A stretch of DNA of 44,372 bases. It comes from a virus. Made by a program: the position numbers and the translations under genes. The notes beneath the pieces were generated by a model, which was not told where the DNA came from, searched no databases, and saw only the letters and a program-made list of their open reading frames with translations. This document shows positions 13,721-42,419 of this stretch, one piece after another (position 1 is the stretch's first letter; every line of letters begins with the position of its first letter). The stretch is taken from positions 1 to 44,372 of IMG/VR virus record IMGVR_UViG_3300021378_000047, one strand, 5' to 3'.

Positions 13721-15946
13721 TTAAGGTGTTAAACAAGAGGCTGTTATCTGAGTATTTATAACTGCAGTATCAAATGTGTTATTAAAATCACCACCTGTTT
13801 GAGTAGCTAAATATCTCCATGGGAATACTGGAGATTGACCTGGAGGTGTGTAAGTAACGTCAACACCAGGACCTAAAATAAATATTTGTACTCCTTGAGT
13901 TAAAGCTTGTGTTGCTAATGTTTGAATAAATGTCCAATCATTTGCATCAAATGCTCCGTCATCACCACCTGGCAGTACATCTGTACCAACAATAATATAT
14001 TTAGCAACATTAGATCTCCATGCATTAGTAAAGCTGTTATTTAATACTCTATTGATAGCTTGATCTGTACATTCCGGACCTGTATTTCCACCACTACCCA
14101 TTTGTACACAAGTAGCTCCTAGAGCAGGTTGACCCAACTGATTTAATGCTGTTGTTGCAGTTGTTGCATTATTATCTTGGAACATTTCCCAAGCAGTAAT
14201 AAATAATTGATGATTATCATTACCTGGGTAATTTAATCTTTGTGTTGCTGGTAAACTTGTATATTCTGTACAACTACCATACCTTGGTGTTGTACTAGTA
14301 TTGTCTTCATCTGCTGTAACAATAGACAGTCTATAATTATTTGCTCCAGATGAAGTAGATATAGTAGTAATTAATGCTGCAAAACCACTTTGTAATGCCG
14401 CTATACTAGCTGCCATTGAACCTGAATAATCCATAATAAAAGCTACATCCATACCATCGCTACAACTTGCTGCTGCAGATTCTGTAGTAAATGTTTGTTG
14501 AGTAGAATTACAAACTTGTGTTGCTCCGTTAAATTGTACAGTTAATCTTACAGTATATGCTGTGTTAGGAGTTAATCCGGTTAATGTTCTTGCTACAGTA
14601 GTACCTGGATTAGTTACCTGATCTGTTGCCACTATTACACTTGCTCCGTCTATAACATCAATTGTGTAAACAGCTGTTGTACCCAATAAGTTACTGAAAC
14701 TTACTGTCACATCTGTTTCTGTTATTGCTGATGTAACTGGTATTTGACAAGGCACTAATCCTGTAATTACACTACTTTGATTATTTGAACATGTGTCAGT
14801 ACCATCTATAAAACTATAATTAACGGTTACATTTATATCTTGTGCAGTATTTAATGCACCAGTACTAAATAAATATCCCGATGCATTATTTTGTAAAGAT
14901 GATACACTTACTGTAGTAGATAATGAAGTCCCTGTTACATCTGTTAAAGTTAATAAAGTATATCCAGATGCATCTGAAAAAGTTGATGGAATACTTGAAC
15001 CTATAAAATTAAATAAAACACCATTGATTAAGCCATTAGATGCAAAAGAATTACTTGTTGTGTAATTATATACTATTGCATCACAACCACCAGGGCAACA
15101 ATTTGTTTGAATAGCTGCAACAGCAGAATATAAATCATCAATAACCACCCATGCATTTTGTACAGATTGTGCAAGCGTTGATGCACTATTGTTCCATCCA
15201 CTAATACTACCGTATGATACACTTGAATTTGTTAGACTATTACTAGTACCTGTAATTACACTTTGATTAATTGCTAAATTAATTGCAGATGGTAAACCCA
15301 CTGCAGTTTGTAATGAGCAAAATGCGGTTTCCAATGCAAGTACAACTACCGATACATTGGTTAAATTACCAACATTAGATACACAAGTTGGTATAATTTG
15401 AGCTTCTACAACTCCTCCACTACAAGGTAACACACAAGCTTCTAATACATCTATTCTAGTGTTAAAACTAGTAAGTGTAGTATTAATAGTATTTATACTT
15501 GCTAAATTTGTACATACTTGGTTTGCTATAAGTGTGGCAAAAGCATCCAAACGTAATTCAGTTACTGGATTACCGCTTGCATCATTATATTGCAAACAAG
15601 CCGGTAATACCATCATAGGTAATGGGGTAGTACCACCACCACCACCACTTGATGATGCATTTAAACAAATTTGAGTAACCATAGCCTGAAGAACAGGAAC
15701 TAAAGTTGTAGGTGTTGTACCTTGAATATTTAAACATGATAAATCTAATCCTGTTAAATTTGGATTAGCTGTTACACCATCTGTAATTATTTGGCATACT
15801 TTATCACCTATCTTTTTGGTTACTTCACTAATTGTGTCTCCATTGCATAAATCAATACATGCAATATCCGGACCTTGCCATATTACACAATTAGAAGATA
15901 TGTTATCACACCCATTAGTTGTGGCGCTTGAGCTTGTTGAAATCAT
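13721..15946 (-). CDS. tail/adhesion protein with fibronectin-like and C-terminal VWA domain
   Basis: The 741-aa protein has three visible parts. Residues 1-290 are Cys-rich with repeated helical/Thr-rich blocks (five or more CxxxC-type pairs, and a GGGGG linker at 101-105). Residues about 290-490 are beta-rich, including a fibronectin III-like unit (401-488, ending LTPNTAYTVRLTV). Residues about 495-741 are a von Willebrand A domain with a MIDAS motif DYSGS (Asp506, Ser508, Ser510). No signal peptide or membrane helix is seen, so export is by incorporation in the virion. VWA domains mediate metal-dependent protein binding; a host-receptor or inter-subunit contact role is inferred. It starts about 50 bases downstream of a promoter-like element and a terminator. 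Confidence 0.9.
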   Translation of the reverse strand: MISTSSSATTNGCDNISSNCVIWQGPDIACIDLCNGDTISEVTKKIGDKVCQIITDGVTANPNLTGLDLSCLNIQGTTPTTLVPVLQAMVTQICLNASSSGGGGGTTPLPMMVLPACLQYNDASGNPVTELRLDAFATLIANQVCTNLASINTINTTLTSFNTRIDVLEACVLPCSGGVVEAQIIPTCVSNVGNLTNVSVVVLALETAFCSLQTAVGLPSAINLAINQSVITGTSNSLTNSSVSYGSISGWNNSASTLAQSVQNAWVVIDDLYSAVAAIQTNCCPGGCDAIVYNYTTSNSFASNGLINGVLFNFIGSSIPSTFSDASGYTLLTLTDVTGTSLSTTVSVSSLQNNASGYLFSTGALNTAQDINVTVNYSFIDGTDTCSNNQSSVITGLVPCQIPVTSAITETDVTVSFSNLLGTTAVYTIDVIDGASVIVATDQVTNPGTTVARTLTGLTPNTAYTVRLTVQFNGATQVCNSTQQTFTTESAAASCSDGMDVAFIMDYSGSMAASIAALQSGFAALITTISTSSGANNYRLSIVTADEDNTSTTPRYGSCTEYTSLPATQRLNYPGNDNHQLFITAWEMFQDNNATTATTALNQLGQPALGATCVQMGSGGNTGPECTDQAINRVLNNSFTNAWRSNVAKYIIVGTDVLPGGDDGAFDANDWTFIQTLATQALTQGVQIFILGPGVDVTYTPPGQSPVFPWRYLATQTGGDFNNTFDTAVINTQITASCLTP

Positions 15947-16083: not shown

Positions 16084-16359
16084 CTATGCTAGAGCTGTTT
16101 CTTCTTCTTTTTCTTCAACTTCAGTAATACTTCCATCTTCTAAACTAATATTTACAGAACCATATTTTTCCTCTAAAGAAATAGTCATGTCTTTCCACTC
16201 AGCTTGAAGTTCAGTATATCTACTTGCTAACTGGTTTTTAATTAATTCTTGGTTACCAATGTTTAATACTACAGTATTAATTTGATTTTTAAGATTATTA
16301 ACTTCTTCCAGCTCTTTGGCTGTAAGTTTTTTAGCCTTTGTAGTTTTACTTTTTGCCAT
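16084..16359 (-). CDS. small coiled-coil protein
   Basis: The 91-aa protein has a Lys-rich start, then a heptad-like helical stretch (about 12-65, LTAKELEEVNNLKNQINTVV and onward), then KYGSVNISLEDGSI (65-78) and an acidic tail. Similar short proteins (coiled coil plus YGDVSI-like hairpin) are common in marine phages, but I know no established role. It is flanked by a promoter-like box 33 bases upstream and a terminator just downstream, so it may be transcribed alone and abundantly. A structural or chaperone role is a guess. Confidence 0.8.
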   Translation of the reverse strand: MAKSKTTKAKKLTAKELEEVNNLKNQINTVVLNIGNQELIKNQLASRYTELQAEWKDMTISLEEKYGSVNISLEDGSITEVEEKEEETALA

Positions 16360-16425: not shown

Positions 16426-16764
16426 TTACCAAGGTACATTTTTAGTTACGCTAGTTGGAGTAATTAAATTTTGAATTCTATTATCAAGACCAGCTTTAAT
16501 TTCTTCAATATCCATATCACTAGATTCTAACCAAGATACTACATCATCTTGTGTTAAACTATCAAAATCAACAAATTGATCTGAAGTTGGCGAATGAACA
16601 GTTTGAGTTCCAATTGTATTTGTTGTATAAGGATTACCTTCTGAATCAGTTTGATCTGATGTAGCTGTCATTCCCCAATGCACATTATATACTACATCAG
16701 TTAAAGTATCTTCTATTGGGTGTATATCCAATGCCTTAATTGCCCATGTGTATGTATTTGCCAT
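16426..16764 (-). CDS. small fibre-partner protein, paralogue of the 103- and 106-aa proteins
   Basis: The 112-aa protein starts with a beta-rich TYTWAIKALDIHP / VVYNVHWGMTAT region, then has an FDSLTQDDVVSWLE motif (about 68-81), and ends in a Pro/Trp terminus (NVPW). The same plan, motif and Pro-Trp ending occur in the 106-aa protein after the other repeat fibre. The 103-aa gene just upstream is a third copy. The family is probably one of the short phage DUFs placed after tail fibres (possibly DUF7936; not checked). A role in fibre folding, capping or attachment is inferred from the repeated pairing. Confidence 0.8.
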   Translation of the reverse strand: MANTYTWAIKALDIHPIEDTLTDVVYNVHWGMTATSDQTDSEGNPYTTNTIGTQTVHSPTSDQFVDFDSLTQDDVVSWLESSDMDIEEIKAGLDNRIQNLITPTSVTKNVPW

Positions 16765-16766
16765 TT

Positions 16767-17078
16767 TTATGTATTTAATTGTTTAGATTGAATATCTGAA
16801 TTATTAATATAGTTATTTCTTTCTGTAGCTTCATATACTACTTTTGTTTCTATTCTGTTTACTTCATCTGGCCCTAAATCCTCTTTAACCCAATCTAAAA
16901 CTTGTTCTTTCGTTAATTGTTCAAAAGGTATAAAATTTTCATCAGCCTCACCTTCAAAAGTTGATGAGTGAACAACAACAGATGCACCTTGACCTTCTTT
17001 ATGTTTACACGAGGCCATTACTTCAGCAACATAATTATTTTCTGTTTTAACTTTTATATCTATTATATTCCATTCCAT
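16767..17078 (-). CDS. small fibre-partner protein (second paralogue)
   Basis: The 103-aa protein has a beta-rich N-terminal half (WNIIDIKVKTENN, VAEVMASCKHK) and a conserved FEQLTKEQVLDWVKEDLG motif (about 52-70). It shares this with the 112-aa gene three bases downstream and the 106-aa gene at 39904. It lacks the PW ending of the other two. It lies one base after the S74 fibre, so it is translationally linked to it. Function is unknown; a fibre-associated role is inferred. Confidence 0.8.
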   Translation of the reverse strand: MEWNIIDIKVKTENNYVAEVMASCKHKEGQGASVVVHSSTFEGEADENFIPFEQLTKEQVLDWVKEDLGPDEVNRIETKVVYEATERNNYINNSDIQSKQLNT

Positions 17079-17079
17079 A

Positions 17080-19458
17080 TTAGTTTCCTTCTAAGGTTTG
17101 TATTCTGGCCTCTAAAGCCTCTACTTTTGCATTTAATTCTTTAACCGCGTTTATTAAAGCGTATGTAACAGGACTTATATCAACCGCATATAGTTCAGTT
17201 TCCTGCTCATCTTCAGGATTTAATTTTTTAGCTACTGTTCCAACAGTTTCTGGAAAAACCTCTTTAATTTCTTGCGCTAACACACCTATAGACTCAACAC
17301 CCTCAACAGTGTTTGCTTTTCCATTAAATGTGTATGATTTAGGTTGAACCTGAATTATTTCAGCTAATCCTTTACTGTAATTTACTATATTCTTTTTAAC
17401 TCTTTCATCTGAAACGAATGTAAAAGAGGAACTATACGAACTAGTTGCTCTTCCATTAACATGAAATACAGAATATGGGACTGATGAGTATGCAAAACCA
17501 TCTGCATCGTTTATGCTCACCTGTCCGTTTGTATAAGTTCCACCTCCTATTACACAGAAAGGAGTGTCTCTTGAAGCATCATTAGCTCCATTACCAACAG
17601 CAAACCTATGCGGCACAGAGCTTGCATTTGTATATTCGTTAAACTTACCAACTACAAACTGGTCTGCTCCGTATGCAGCTGAAGGAAATGTTGGTGTAGT
17701 TACACCTGAACCAAAAGCATATTGATTATTCCCTGTACTTGCTGTAGCGCCAGCGCCTATTGCTACACTACCAAATTGACCAAAGTTATTTGAATCATAC
17801 CCACCTGTTAAACTATACACAGCACCAAAAGCTCTACACTGTTTTCCAAACACCAACGCATTGCTAGATGTTACTTCATGTTCAGAACCACTTATGAGTG
17901 TATTTGCATTATTAATTGAAGAAGTGCCAAGGTCATTTAGCTGCCCAAAAACAGCATTTGCATGGCTATAGAAACCAAAAATATTATTATTTAGACCAGC
18001 TATAAAATTACCTCCTAAATTTAACCATGGTTCATTTGTACATTCTATAGTATTACCAATTCCAATAATACCATTAGCTTCACCCCCTAATACATTTAAT
18101 GCTCCTACTGCTAAACTATTTGTAGCTGGATACGTACAAGATTTTAAAGTATTTCCAAAACCAACATATATGTTATTACTGATTGAGGTATTGCCTTCCA
18201 CTACTAGCTTTTCACCAGGGTTAGTTGTCCCTATACCTACGTTGCCGTTATTAGCAATACGCATTTTTTCTGAATAATTAATGCCTAATCTTAAAACAAC
18301 GGTAGACCCATTAGAACTACCTGGATTAGAATATATACTAGAGCCAGTTGAAGCGTGTGATAACTGTAACAAGCCATTGTTACTTACAGCAGGATCTTGA
18401 ACATCTAAAGTTGAATTAAATGCACCATCACCAGCTACTTGTAGTTTATAAGTAGGACTAGTCGTTCCGATCCCAACGTTACCTGAAGACGGCTGAAGTA
18501 ATAAATGACTACCTCTTACAGCTCTTAAGAATTCGTAATTTACCGTCTCTGAGTTAGTAAACATTGAAAAATAATTACTAGCGCCATTGTACTCCATATA
18601 TGACCCCGATACAGTACTGTTCCCGTATTCATTAAACCTTATTCGTCCGCTTGGGTTTTGATTAGTACTTGATTGTGTAAAAACTAATTCCCCGTCTCTA
18701 ATATCTAGCTTTTGAGTTGGACTAGTTGTTCCGATACCAACCTCTCCAGAAGAACTTAAAAACATCCTACTTGTTGTAGCAGGTGTATTTGTTAATTGAT
18801 TATTAACTCTAAAATCAAGACCGTAACCACCGTCTAAATTAACTTGCGCTATAACAGCTGTTCCGTGATTGGTACCAGTTCCGGTCCATCTTCTCCAATC
18901 TAACAAACCACTAACACCATTAGTACCCATTCTCAAACCAAGAGTATTAGCTCCTCCCCAAGGGTAGCTGGTTTGTTCTACAGCAATATATTGGTCTGTC
19001 CCTTTTACAGTTAGTTTCTCACCAGGACTAGACGTTCCAATTCCGACATTACCACCATAAAGTTGCAAGGCTAAATCTTCTGCATTTGAAGTACCTCCAC
19101 TACTTTGTGCTTGTATATATGAATGAGTATTGCCTGATCCTGATGTTTCTAATAACAACCTTGAACCAGTTGATCCTGGAACGTAATCAGAAGTGGTAGT
19201 TGAAATAGCGCCATCAACTTCTAAAGCAGTACTAGGACTAAACGTCCCAATCCCAACGTTGCCATTAGGTATGAATAAATTTCCATTGCCTACATAAACA
19301 TTATTGTTAACATTTCCTGGCCCTCCACCTAATGTTATAGCTTGACCAGACCCTGCTACTATACACAAAGTTGATGCATAATTAAATAGTACATTGTTGG
19401 TAGTGCCTATTGCTACACTACCATTAACGTCTATTGAAGATTCAAATTGAATTGCCAT
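17080..19458 (-). CDS. tail fibre with VGIGT repeats and C-terminal S74 self-cleaving chaperone
   Basis: The 792-aa protein begins MAIQF, like the 697-aa fibre, which suggests a shared virion anchor. Five VGIGT(S/T/N)P-type units occur at residues 68, 138, 240, 328 and 407, marking beta-helical shaft segments. Residues about 430-670 resemble YadA-head-like repeats (for example AVFGQ and VAIGAGATAS). The last 110 residues form a peptidase S74 intramolecular chaperone, recognised by SDERVKKNI (Ser683, Asp684) and the IGVLAQEIKEVFPE segment. The chaperone trimerises the fibre and cuts itself off before Ser683. A C-terminal coiled coil (VKELNAKVEALEARIQ) ends the protein. It is a likely receptor-binding fibre. 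Confidence 0.92.
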   Translation of the reverse strand: MAIQFESSIDVNGSVAIGTTNNVLFNYASTLCIVAGSGQAITLGGGPGNVNNNVYVGNGNLFIPNGNVGIGTFSPSTALEVDGAISTTTSDYVPGSTGSRLLLETSGSGNTHSYIQAQSSGGTSNAEDLALQLYGGNVGIGTSSPGEKLTVKGTDQYIAVEQTSYPWGGANTLGLRMGTNGVSGLLDWRRWTGTGTNHGTAVIAQVNLDGGYGLDFRVNNQLTNTPATTSRMFLSSSGEVGIGTTSPTQKLDIRDGELVFTQSSTNQNPSGRIRFNEYGNSTVSGSYMEYNGASNYFSMFTNSETVNYEFLRAVRGSHLLLQPSSGNVGIGTTSPTYKLQVAGDGAFNSTLDVQDPAVSNNGLLQLSHASTGSSIYSNPGSSNGSTVVLRLGINYSEKMRIANNGNVGIGTTNPGEKLVVEGNTSISNNIYVGFGNTLKSCTYPATNSLAVGALNVLGGEANGIIGIGNTIECTNEPWLNLGGNFIAGLNNNIFGFYSHANAVFGQLNDLGTSSINNANTLISGSEHEVTSSNALVFGKQCRAFGAVYSLTGGYDSNNFGQFGSVAIGAGATASTGNNQYAFGSGVTTPTFPSAAYGADQFVVGKFNEYTNASSVPHRFAVGNGANDASRDTPFCVIGGGTYTNGQVSINDADGFAYSSVPYSVFHVNGRATSSYSSSFTFVSDERVKKNIVNYSKGLAEIIQVQPKSYTFNGKANTVEGVESIGVLAQEIKEVFPETVGTVAKKLNPEDEQETELYAVDISPVTYALINAVKELNAKVEALEARIQTLEGN

Positions 19459-19523: not shown

Positions 19524-21617
19524 TTAATTTACTTTTAGAATATTTACTCTATAACTATTTGCAGCCACAGTTGTTGTCCATGCCAATGAAATAGCACCTG
19601 TAGATGGATTTGCTGTATTATCTAAATAAAGTTGTACACCTGTTGTTGCATCATAAATCTGTACAATAAATGGCCCAGTACCTAGTCCGTGTGTTGCAGC
19701 AGAAACAGAATGAGTATTAGATGTTATACTTGGAAAAGTTTCACTATAACCTTGTTTATTAAGTGAAGCAGCTAATGTTGCAGGTGTAACGTATCTAAAT
19801 GTATCTGTTCCGGCATCTACTTCAGCTTGTGTTGCAATCTCTGTAACACCAACTGCAGTCGTTGTTGCATTAGGAAGTGTTCTTTTACTCATTGATGTAA
19901 TAACACCATCAGTAACATTAATCTGATCAACTACATCAACTCCGTCTGTATCCAAGTTTGTGTCAGTACCAATAATTTTATTAAATGTACTTGCTAGTTG
20001 TGTATCACTAATTCCACCCGCTTTAATTGTAATAAATCCACTTGCTGTTCCTGCAAAAGAAGCACTGCTAAATCCAGCAACACCTTTTTCAGTTGCCCCA
20101 TCTGTTGCACCTACTCCTGCAATATTTTGATCTTGAATAACAATAGTGTAATCTGTAGATGCAGGGTCAGAGTTTGCAGAAATATTTGAATTTGCAAATA
20201 TTAAATCACCCACTTCTACAGTAACTGTTGTATCACTAAATGTAATATCTCCATCTGCAGTTACAACGTAAAAGTCACCTGTAGTTAAAGCAACGTTACT
20301 TGCTCCACTAATATTTGGTGATCCAGGATCATTTGTTGCATCATATCCACCTTGAAATACCCCTACTCCAGCAACAAGTGATTGTACTTGACCTAAGTTA
20401 ACACCATCTGTATTAGCAGTACCTGTTGCTACATTTAATATCTTGTTTGCACCAAAGTCCACATCTGCTTCTGCACTACCCCATTGGTCTAAGTGTACAT
20501 TTTGGTATAATATTTTTTCATTTGCAGTTCCATCTACACCTACTAAAAAGTCTGCAGCAGGATCAATAGATGTAACTGTAGGTAATTCAGATAAATCAAG
20601 TGTAATACCAATGTCACCACTACTTGTAACAGGTGAATTACTTACATCTAATCCTGTTCCTGGAGTTATACCTATACTTGTTACACCATCCACAGGTAAT
20701 GTGCCAAGACTACCATCGCCTAATACAACTTGAGAAGTAGTACCAGCCCCTGTTACTGTTAAATTACCAGTGCTTGTTACTGGAGAATTTGTTACAGTAA
20801 AAGCTGCCGGCATTGATAAACCAACACTTGTTACACCATCTACAGGTAAAGTAGCTAATGTTAAGTCACCTAATATTACTTGTGAGGAAGTACCTGCACC
20901 TGCAATATTAATATCACCATTGGCTGTAAGAGGTGTATTAGTAATTGTAAGAGCATTACCTGTTTCTGTAATACCAACACTTGTAAGACCAGTATTTGTA
21001 TCCGCAGCCCAACTTGGGATTCCTCCTGCTACTTTTAATACTTGTCCTGTTGAACCTATAGCTAATTTAGCTAATGTATTACTTGCTGATGCATATAAAA
21101 TATCTCCAGTAGTATAAGTAGATTGTCCAGTACCTCCACTAACTTCATTAAGTGTACCAGCAAGTGTAATTGTACCACTAGATGTAACTGGACCACCGCT
21201 TGCTGTTAAGCCTGTAGTTCCACCACTTACATCAACAGAGGTTACTGTACCTACATTATTTGTTGCTGTAGTACCAATTGTTAATTCTGTAGCACTTGTT
21301 CTAGTAACAGAAATTAAACCACTACCCGTAATAGCCACATCTTGTTGTGAGCTGTCAGTACCTGCTAATCTAATTGTTGTTGTTGCTGCAGGAACATTAA
21401 ATGTATAAGTTGTGTTATCATCTGCTCCAGTGCTCAGATCTACCCATGCACTACCATCATATAATCTCAGAACATTATTAGCTGAGTTATAATAAACTCT
21501 ACCCGCAATACCAGTTGGATTTGCAGCTAAAGGATGCACTATAAAATTTTGAAGTTGACTTTCATTTAAATTTACATTGCCTTGTATATTTAAACCTGTT
21601 AAAAACTGTATTGCCAT
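19524..21617 (-). CDS. tail fibre with tandem ~50-residue repeats
   Basis: The 697-aa protein begins MAIQF, then has a YYNSANNVLRLYDGSAWVDL motif typical of phage fibre anchors. From residue 211, three units of about 50 residues start with (L/V)TS(V/I)G at 211, 262 and 312. Two of them carry the block GAGTxSQVxLGD...LPVDG. A diverged unit starts near 125. The rest is Thr/Ser/Gly-rich beta-structure, ending in TTTVAANSYRVNILKVN. No S74 chaperone is present. It lies between the 181-aa gene and the S74 fibre and is probably a fibre or a fibre-proximal part. Confidence 0.88.
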   Translation of the reverse strand: MAIQFLTGLNIQGNVNLNESQLQNFIVHPLAANPTGIAGRVYYNSANNVLRLYDGSAWVDLSTGADDNTTYTFNVPAATTTIRLAGTDSSQQDVAITGSGLISVTRTSATELTIGTTATNNVGTVTSVDVSGGTTGLTASGGPVTSSGTITLAGTLNEVSGGTGQSTYTTGDILYASASNTLAKLAIGSTGQVLKVAGGIPSWAADTNTGLTSVGITETGNALTITNTPLTANGDINIAGAGTSSQVILGDLTLATLPVDGVTSVGLSMPAAFTVTNSPVTSTGNLTVTGAGTTSQVVLGDGSLGTLPVDGVTSIGITPGTGLDVSNSPVTSSGDIGITLDLSELPTVTSIDPAADFLVGVDGTANEKILYQNVHLDQWGSAEADVDFGANKILNVATGTANTDGVNLGQVQSLVAGVGVFQGGYDATNDPGSPNISGASNVALTTGDFYVVTADGDITFSDTTVTVEVGDLIFANSNISANSDPASTDYTIVIQDQNIAGVGATDGATEKGVAGFSSASFAGTASGFITIKAGGISDTQLASTFNKIIGTDTNLDTDGVDVVDQINVTDGVITSMSKRTLPNATTTAVGVTEIATQAEVDAGTDTFRYVTPATLAASLNKQGYSETFPSITSNTHSVSAATHGLGTGPFIVQIYDATTGVQLYLDNTANPSTGAISLAWTTTVAANSYRVNILKVN
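20575..20990 (-). repeat. tandem ~150-bp coding repeat in the 697-aa fibre
   Basis: The region encodes two full units and one partial, each of about 50 codons, starting at residues 211, 262 and 312 of the fibre. Units share PVT(S/A)xGxI/L and GAGT(S/T)SQV blocks. Similar DNA in the copies suggests recent duplication or recombination. Confidence 0.75.
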
Positions 21618-39903: not shown

Positions 39904-40224
39904 TTAACTCCAAGGAAGGCCCACGTTTGTCGGTAGGTCTTCTATTTGTTCTTTTTTAATTGTAGCTTGTGCATCTACGTAAGCTTCAGCGTTTGCTACA
40001 ACAGTTGGCCCTAGATCCGCTTGTACTAAACCTATAACTTGAGATTCTGTTAGTTGATCATAAGGTGTAAGAGGGGCTGGTCCTACTACGCCAGATAAAG
40101 TATTAGTAAATACTTTTCTAGCATAGCCAACACCGTCTTGCCCTTGAGCTGCAGATATTACCACCAGCTTATCCTCGCCAGCGTTGTTTTCATACTCCAT
40201 TGTTAAAATTGTCCAAGTTGCCAT
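39904..40224 (-). CDS. small fibre-partner protein (third paralogue)
   Basis: The 106-aa protein shares the plan of the 112- and 103-aa proteins at 16426-17078: a beta-rich TWTILTMEYEN N-terminus, the motif YDQLTESQVIGLVQADLG (about 54-71), and a Pro-Trp end (GLPWS). It lies 11 bases after the 727-aa fibre, just as the 103-aa copy follows the S74 fibre. The same arrangement in two places suggests a functional unit: fibre shaft plus a small cap, clamp or folding helper. Function is inferred. Confidence 0.8.
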   Translation of the reverse strand: MATWTILTMEYENNAGEDKLVVISAAQGQDGVGYARKVFTNTLSGVVGPAPLTPYDQLTESQVIGLVQADLGPTVVANAEAYVDAQATIKKEQIEDLPTNVGLPWS

Positions 40225-40235
40225 ATTTATTTTTT

Positions 40236-42419
40236 TTAATTATAAGTTCTTATTTCTACTGAAGCTTTAGTAAGCTTACCATCGCTGTTGTGTGTTCTTA
40301 TTGCTAAGTTGTCTGTATCAATTACTTCCCAAGCAATATCATGATTATTTTCCGCTGATCCCCCGTTTATAAACACAATTGTTTTTAACAAGCTAAATTT
40401 ACCAGGTGCGTTTAAATTATATTCTCCGCTACCTACTCTTGTCCAATTAAAAGGCGTTGGTATACCAAGACTATTTTCTAAAAGATTAGCATTAACAGGA
40501 GCGGATGCGCCTGATTGGTTTAATAAAAACACTGCACTTGAATAATTTGTACCAGCGGGGGTATTGGTTTCAATTATTACACCGTTAGCATCAACAGACA
40601 AATTATAAGTTGCAGTTCCAGTTACTGTACCTGATCCATATGTAGGTATTTTAATATTACCAGCACCGTTTATACTTAAAGCATTTGATCTATTAATATC
40701 GCTAGATCCACTACCTATTTGGAATTGCTGAAAGCCATCATTCAAGTCATTATATTTACCCAAACAAACACTATCTTGATTCCCGCCTTCAAGGCCCGTG
40801 CCTATTAGTTTTTGGCGTCCAGTGCTAGTAGTTCGGTTGTTGGTTCCAGCCACAAAAGATTCAAAAGCGTTGATGGCTATAGTGTTTTGTGCTCCAAAAA
40901 CAGCACATGACCCTGACGATACGGAGTTGCCAATTCCATAGACAATAGACTCAGATCCTGTTACGGTACTGTTCTTACCACCTACAAATGAATTATTTCC
41001 TGAAACAACATTATTATCACCAGTAGCTACAGACTGTAAACCACTAGCTGTTGTGCCATCTCCTATTGCAAAAGAATTGTTGCCAGAGGCTATAGACTCA
41101 AATCCAAACTTAACAGCATTGTTTCCATCAGCGCTTCCAGCGTAACCGAGTTTAACAGCGTTGTTTCCTGCTGCTGTACCACCAAATCCTTGTACAAAAG
41201 AATTTTTTCCGTTTGCTTCTCCTTTTTCACCAATAGCTACAGATGATTGACCTGACGCAACTGAATCTTGACCTGAAGCAATACTGTAAACACCCGAAGC
41301 AATTGACTTGTTACCAAAAACTGCAGACGCTAGCCCTGATGCTTCAGTTAATAAACCAAAAGCAGAAGACCCTCCTCCTGATGCTAGTGTTATAAAGTTA
41401 GCCGCAAAAGAACCATTACCAAAGGCCGTAGTAGACGCTCCTACCGATAGTGCGTTTTCACCATTAGCTAAAGCATTGCCACCTAGATTAAAAGAAGGCC
41501 CTGGATTTGTGGTTCCACCACTATTTGGAAGAACAACACCACCGCCGCCGTCTTGAGTTATAGAAAACTTTTTGTTTCCTCCAGAGTTCAAATCTAATAA
41601 CTTTGTATTAATAGCTGGAGTGTAGGTTGTGGTTGTTACTGCATTTAAATCAAATATAACACCTCCGTCTATTTTGGTTTGTGTTACTTGAGAATCACCC
41701 AATTCACTGTTTGGGCCATCAGTCCATATAGGTAAAACATTTGTTGTACCGCTTCCTGTTACTGTTCCTGTAACTGTATTATCAACCCATTCAATCCCTG
41801 TTCCGGTTGAACCCAACACTTGACCTGCTGTACCTGGTAAAGCATTAACATCTAATATAGCACCTTCAAACTCATGATCTGTATGAGATATAATTTTAGG
41901 TGTTGCTGTGTCTAATTCAAACTGTGGGTTTTGACCAGCTGCTCCTAATCTTAAACCATTTCCAGCCCAATTGTATATATAGCCAAAACCATCACCGTCA
42001 TCATCCCAACCAAAACTTACTTTAAAGTTTCCATCTTGCTGAATTAAATACTCAGGGTCACCAGTTGTTACAGAGCTAGGTTTATTTATAATAAATCTAT
42101 CTGCATTATTAAATCTTATTTGATACAAACCGTTACTGAGTTGAGGTGATTGTTGTAGTTGAGAATCACCCAATGTAGTCCCATCAGGTGTAAATACTGG
42201 AATTGTATTTAATGTACCTCCTCCTGAGATTTCTCCTTCATCAAAGTGTGCCTTTAAATCTTTAATAGTTATAAGCTGATTGTTCATTTTTGGAGTAACA
42301 AACATACTATCTTCCGGATTAGGTGTTCTACCTAATATAATTAAATCAGTTGGTTCAACTTCTTTTACCACTTTTTTACGGGATAATAATCCCATCATAT
42401 CTTGTAATATATTTCCCAT
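40236..42419 (-). CDS. tail fibre with YadA-like left-handed repeat head
   Basis: The 727-aa protein starts with an anchor-like N-terminus (LLSRKKVVKEVEPTDLIILGRTP). It then has beta-rich blocks such as GTLNTIPVFTPDGTTLGDSQLQQSP and a related one (about 215-240). Residues about 305-530 form many repeats of the SxASGxxSxAxG type (for example IASGQDSVASGQSSVAIG), the pattern of YadA-type trimeric adhesin heads. The C-terminal part is beta-rich and has no S74 chaperone. It is a likely fibre or receptor-binding protein. Neighbour copies of the 106-aa partner follow it. Unlike the S74 fibre it sits far from the main tail cluster, next to small basic genes. Confidence 0.9.
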   Translation of the reverse strand: MGNILQDMMGLLSRKKVVKEVEPTDLIILGRTPNPEDSMFVTPKMNNQLITIKDLKAHFDEGEISGGGTLNTIPVFTPDGTTLGDSQLQQSPQLSNGLYQIRFNNADRFIINKPSSVTTGDPEYLIQQDGNFKVSFGWDDDGDGFGYIYNWAGNGLRLGAAGQNPQFELDTATPKIISHTDHEFEGAILDVNALPGTAGQVLGSTGTGIEWVDNTVTGTVTGSGTTNVLPIWTDGPNSELGDSQVTQTKIDGGVIFDLNAVTTTTYTPAINTKLLDLNSGGNKKFSITQDGGGGVVLPNSGGTTNPGPSFNLGGNALANGENALSVGASTTAFGNGSFAANFITLASGGGSSAFGLLTEASGLASAVFGNKSIASGVYSIASGQDSVASGQSSVAIGEKGEANGKNSFVQGFGGTAAGNNAVKLGYAGSADGNNAVKFGFESIASGNNSFAIGDGTTASGLQSVATGDNNVVSGNNSFVGGKNSTVTGSESIVYGIGNSVSSGSCAVFGAQNTIAINAFESFVAGTNNRTTSTGRQKLIGTGLEGGNQDSVCLGKYNDLNDGFQQFQIGSGSSDINRSNALSINGAGNIKIPTYGSGTVTGTATYNLSVDANGVIIETNTPAGTNYSSAVFLLNQSGASAPVNANLLENSLGIPTPFNWTRVGSGEYNLNAPGKFSLLKTIVFINGGSAENNHDIAWEVIDTDNLAIRTHNSDGKLTKASVEIRTYN
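40860..41510 (-). repeat. YadA-like repeat-coding segment
   Basis: This part of the fibre gene codes repeated 14-16-residue units with SxASG or NNS patterns; the DNA is itself repetitive with cognate TCTGG/CCAGA-type tracts on the minus strand. Confidence 0.65.

Follow-up and report, generated by a model that had tools for sequence, protein, structure and literature searches.

Phage tail fibres can have helper proteins of more than one kind. In T4, three different fibre proteins require gp57A, whereas gp38 acts on a single one (PMC3004832). Intermolecular chaperones encoded behind the fibres they serve have been shown by experiment for Pam3 gp25 (PMC9608196) and V22 gp27 (PMC7289586); the latter, a DUF4376 protein of an Alteromonas phage, is needed for the function of the receptor-binding fibre and is absent from the final complex, and Mu Tfa remains on the virion (PMC9608196). 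Here we describe a family of small proteins, Pfam DUF7936, encoded at two fibre sites of the window, by which we mean the whole 44,372-base virus record that was analysed. In many water-living phages the DUF7936 gene stays constant through exchanges of the fibre, a pattern suggestive of a general helper in building or finishing fibres.

Three DUF7936 copies at two fibre sites

The first site holds an S74 tail fibre of 792 amino acids (17080-19458; minus strand, as are all the fibre and small-protein genes of the window given below), with a C-terminal Peptidase_S74 domain (PF13884, E 3.1e-12) and a match to the tail fiber family phrog_9942 (E 2.2e-33). Peptidase_S74 is an intramolecular chaperone. 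One base beyond the fibre stop lies DUF7936 copy B (103 aa, 16767-17078), and two bases beyond that copy A (112 aa, 16426-16764). A further fibre-like gene (697 aa, 19524-21617), which matches the tail collar fiber family phrog_910 (E 2.2e-11) and YadA_stalk below the cut-off, stands upstream of the S74 fibre, so that this site reads fibre-fibre-DUF-DUF. At the second site, about 20 kb away, a 727-aa fibre with YadA_head repeats (40236-42419; PF05658, E 1.2e-10) and no S74 domain is followed after 11 bases by copy C (106 aa, 39904-40224). The open reading frames confirm the genes, coordinates and order of the original prediction, which placed two small proteins behind the S74 fibre and a third behind the YadA-like one. 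Directly downstream of copy A is a 91-aa protein (16084-16359), and 12 of 13 of its relatives, including that of Flavobacterium phage immuto, are likewise encoded directly behind a DUF7936 gene. Near the same site, a 741-aa protein (13721-15946) shows faint similarity to fibronectin type III and to von Willebrand A domains.

All three small proteins score above the curated PF25590 cut-off of 27 bits (copy A, 76 bits, E 4.4e-21; copy B, 57.2 bits, E 3e-15; copy C, 35.5 bits, E 1.8e-8) and match phrog_7802 (E 2.1e-10, 1.2e-14 and 5.8e-8, respectively), with both matches covering most of the length of each. By these profiles they are one family, Pfam DUF7936 / PHROG 7802, of unassigned function, and the kinship predicted for them is borne out. 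Direct BLASTP likeness is found only between copies B and C (E 3e-10), copy A being joined to them through the profiles. The sequence features on which the kinship had been based fared less evenly: the DLG ending of the proposed LTxxxVxxxV(K/Q)xDLG motif is present in two of the three (LTKEQVLDWVKEDLG, LTESQVIGLVQADLG) and missing from the 112-aa copy (LTQDDVVSWLESSDMD), and of the two Pro-Trp ends that were claimed, that of copy A (...NVPW) stands, copy C has a serine after the pair (...LPWS) and copy B has no Pro-Trp. A search of the window found these copies to be the whole DUF7936 complement of the record. The PF25590 and phrog_7802 models record no function or link to fibres, an NCBIfam search of the window proteins added nothing on the three copies, and none of them matched another Pfam family, including those for tail-fibre assembly and chaperones, at E up to 1. 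The name DUF7936 did not occur in the literature searched.

AlphaFold2 predicts, with high confidence, three strands followed by two helices (pLDDT 93.3 for copy A and 91.7 for copy C), and across 82 DUF7936 sequences W7 and P103 are nearly invariant. A sequence search of the PDB gave a best E of 0.06, partial and at chance level, and a fold search of the PDB gave no match at E up to 0.001. The best VIA-align scores, Z 6.1 and 4.7, were to LptE-type proteins, a range in which the likeness may be one of general layout only; the Foldseek and VIA-align matches listed do not include Mu Tfa or Pam3 gp25, and the significant BFVD matches are DUF7936 proteins and unnamed entries. The predicted fold is thus one without a clear PDB match, which does not in itself prove a new fold.

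Position behind fibres and independence from the tip

Relatives of DUF7936 are found in cyanophages, pelagiphages, roseophages, Flavobacterium phages and uncultured phages, and one scan recovered at least 500 IMG/VR stretches. In most of the annotated records examined, among podo-, sipho- and myovirus relatives, the gene stands behind a fibre or a long gene. IMG/VR loci (L numbers below) were gathered by the DUF7936 protein alone, genes were called by a simple script, and the neighbour on each side was taken as the closest gene on the same strand that encodes 200 aa or more. The upstream neighbour belongs to the tail-fibre family phrog_9942 in at least 82 of 106 dereplicated clusters, against 3 of 52 for the downstream control; these counts come from a similarity search with few seeds and are therefore valid for the sampled branches, and the fibre class rests on PHROG models, some of which contain repetitive sequence. 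The original prediction linked the small protein to fibres, and in these loci its homologues do lie mostly behind fibre genes. Peptidase_S74 is present on the upstream gene in 50 of the 106 clusters, and no gene intervenes between the large upstream gene and DUF7936 in 124 of 176 loci. The downstream neighbours vary (endolysins, lysozyme, terminases, baseplate, chaperonin and more) and the upstream class remains fibre. Among 225 matches there was no in-frame fusion of DUF7936 to a fibre. A composition proxy for fibres was dropped as uninformative, 38% of downstream genes having passed it.

Exceptions to this arrangement include the P-SSM2 copy, which has a series of small genes around it and no fibre nearby, the 11 of 176 loci in which the large gene next upstream is an integrase, most of them with a fibre immediately behind it if the contig is long enough to show it, and some loci with HNH endonucleases between fibre and DUF7936. 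A set of cyanophage-type loci (L099, 2784-3731; L069, L112, L060, L072, L082, L083 and phage S-LBS1, L220) has a tyrosine recombinase (integrase) gene between the two or, in two loci, downstream of DUF7936; its place at the junction is perhaps linked to fibre exchange. In S-LBS1 a perfect 126-base tandem repeat (L220, 4223-4475) spans the 3' end of DUF7936 and leaves a partial second copy. Phage GroEL-like (PF00118) and GroES-like (PF00166) genes, called by Pfam in L036 and by similarity elsewhere, follow shortly downstream of fibre and DUF7936 in L036 (5721-7518), L043 (5730-7534), L039, L041, L042 and L045. The start of the upstream protein in L067 (2717-3763; MKRYGNLYSQICDIGNLRVAYENAR) recalls a reverse transcriptase, which we take to be a possible sign of a diversity-generating element near the fibre.

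How alike two DUF7936 proteins are says almost nothing about how alike the C-termini of their fibres are (Spearman 0.046 for 28 cyanophage-type and 0.049 for 44 pelagiphage-type loci), and many pairs combine near-identical DUF7936 proteins with unrelated tips. On the DUF7936 tree, which is a rough guide with few columns and many open forks, the presence or absence of S74 changes 20 times in the cyanophage type (21.1 when shuffled) and 20 times in the pelagiphage type (21.7 when shuffled), while the lineage label changes only three times. In L039, L041 and L043 the DUF7936 proteins are 95-99% identical and the second fibre gene, which carries the tip, is alike in its first 11 residues only; the S74 tip stands alone, without APC, and the two other tips are accompanied by a Phage_tail_APC gene. 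Relatives with copy C at 90-94% identity have unlike downstream genes, and their fibres include both the YadA type and one with an S74 tip. DUF7936 keeps to no single shaft or tip type, which supports the proposal that it is not specific to one shaft; a general fibre cap, clamp or folding helper, as also proposed there, is a candidate role.

Fibre and DUF7936 are separated by an extra gene in 8 of 50 S74 clusters versus 29 of 55 non-S74 clusters (Fisher p 9e-5). At non-S74 fibres the genes in between include APC (3), XkdW (4), phrog_6228 (13) and endonucleases. Tip folding thus appears to be covered otherwise, by S74 within the fibre or by a separate APC or XkdW gene. The phrog_6228 protein (85 aa, function unassigned; L175, 4741-4995; also L137, L154, L182, L193, L205, L207 and others) is a candidate new fibre chaperone; all 13 scanned genes are at non-S74 fibres, and it is absent from the S74 loci listed.

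The fibre and DUF7936 unit occurs at different genome sites. Beside the terminase genes, L020 has the S74 fibre followed by copies B and A, and in L040 the equivalent site holds a YadA-like fibre accompanied by copy C and one more copy. Copies B and C and the further copy of L040 form one supported group on the tree; copy A falls elsewhere, so that the pair did not arise by recent duplication.

Candidate roles of DUF7936

We give a probability of about 0.5 to the reading that DUF7936 is a general tail-fibre accessory, the product of which acts during the making of the fibre, at a step that every fibre shares. Such a step could be the prevention of clumping of fibre chains, help in the joining of three chains, or the finishing or attachment of the fibre, and the folding of the variable tip would be left to a dedicated chaperone, be it S74 at the fibre's own end or an APC or XkdW protein whose gene separates fibre from DUF7936. 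On this reading the protein would make contact with the fibre, probably as a passing helper and not as a permanent component of the virion. More tentatively, DUF7936 may be a general fibre-assembly factor widespread in aquatic phages, forming a second layer beside the tip-specific chaperones (S74, APC, XkdW) and leaving the tips freely exchangeable. Against a general factor counts the expectation that one copy of it should serve two fibres, where the window keeps three copies. A rule of one fibre per DUF7936 copy fits the window, with its three fibres and three copies, and fails in pelagiphages and in S-CRES1.

The same genomic evidence would fit a permanent virion part, a cap, clamp, decoration or connector shared by fibres with differing tips, for which Mu Tfa, kept on the virion, is a precedent (PMC9608196). 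We consider this less likely. No virion proteome covering DUF7936 was found in the literature searched, the structure of the related podovirus P-SCSP1u does not resolve the distal parts of the fibre (PMC10575957), and S-CREM2, for which a virion proteome is published, has no DUF7936 match and so provides no test. Mass spectrometry of S-CREM2 did detect a small protein encoded behind the short tail fibre, which is not a DUF7936 protein. It is less probable still that DUF7936 is a positional passenger, standing beside the fibre locus by chance as a backbone gene conserved for some other role, and perhaps offering recombining fibres a place to land. The gene does track phage lineage while the fibre changes, and integrases and HNH endonucleases are found at the very same junction; because DUF7936 stays while fibres change, part of its linkage to fibres could be genome order. 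A passenger would not readily account for the two fibre sites in one genome with DUF7936 at each, for the presence of the unit at different sites, or for downstream neighbours that vary widely while the upstream class stays fibre.

In its size, its place behind the fibre and its order of strands before helices, the protein resembles Pam3 gp25 and Mu Tfa (PMC9608196), as would suit a tip-specific chaperone of the Tfa type matched to one fibre end. This is very improbable, and as the main reading it is rejected on the rank correlations, the L039, L041 and L043 trio and the changes on the tree: DUF7936 tracks neither the fibre C-terminus nor the tip class and is nearly constant while tips are replaced. 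Moreover, the tips have chaperones of their own (S74, APC or XkdW) beside DUF7936, which makes tip-specific folding by DUF7936 less likely.

Fibre tips, which determine the hosts open to a phage, are frequently exchanged. If the general accessory reading is true, a constant partner for unrelated tips would explain how such exchange does not disturb assembly, and it would assign a function to a large family currently labelled hypothetical or, without support here, lysozyme, as in the public records of S-EIVl (AHV82128), immuto (QQO92145), DSL-LC07 and CRP-901. DUF7936 is also a practical marker for fibre genes of unknown type, and the split between general and tip-specific fibre chaperones becomes directly testable outside T4.

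Comparison with known fibre chaperones

Like DUF7936, V22 gp27 is encoded directly behind a receptor-binding fibre; it is about twice the size, and its DUF4376 model is unmatched by DUF7936 proteins. The Tfa family (Mu Tfa and Pam3 gp25; PMC9608196) shares with DUF7936 a small gene behind the fibre and a beta N-terminal and helical C-terminal part; Tfa has a variable fibre-binding part, whereas DUF7936 does not follow the fibre. Phage_tail_APC (PF16778) and XkdW (PF09636) are likewise small, lie behind fibres and occur in the same gene clusters, but only with some tips, and are unrelated to DUF7936 (hhalign probability 0.4%; no hmmscan match); profile comparison of DUF7936 with XkdW, APC and phrog_6228 found no relation. 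By the tests made, DUF7936 falls outside the Tfa and V22 gp27 families.

The best reading is that the role of DUF7936 is comparable to that of T4 gp57A. The T4 protein has no aromatic residues and no prolines (PMC3004832), while DUF7936 has a nearly invariant tryptophan and proline, and the beta-sheet and two helices predicted for DUF7936 are unlike gp57A. The likeness lies in small size, in generality across fibre kinds, which for DUF7936 is suggested by the position of its genes with S74, YadA and other fibres, and in the company of a more specialised partner, gp38 standing alongside gp57A as S74, APC and XkdW stand beside DUF7936.
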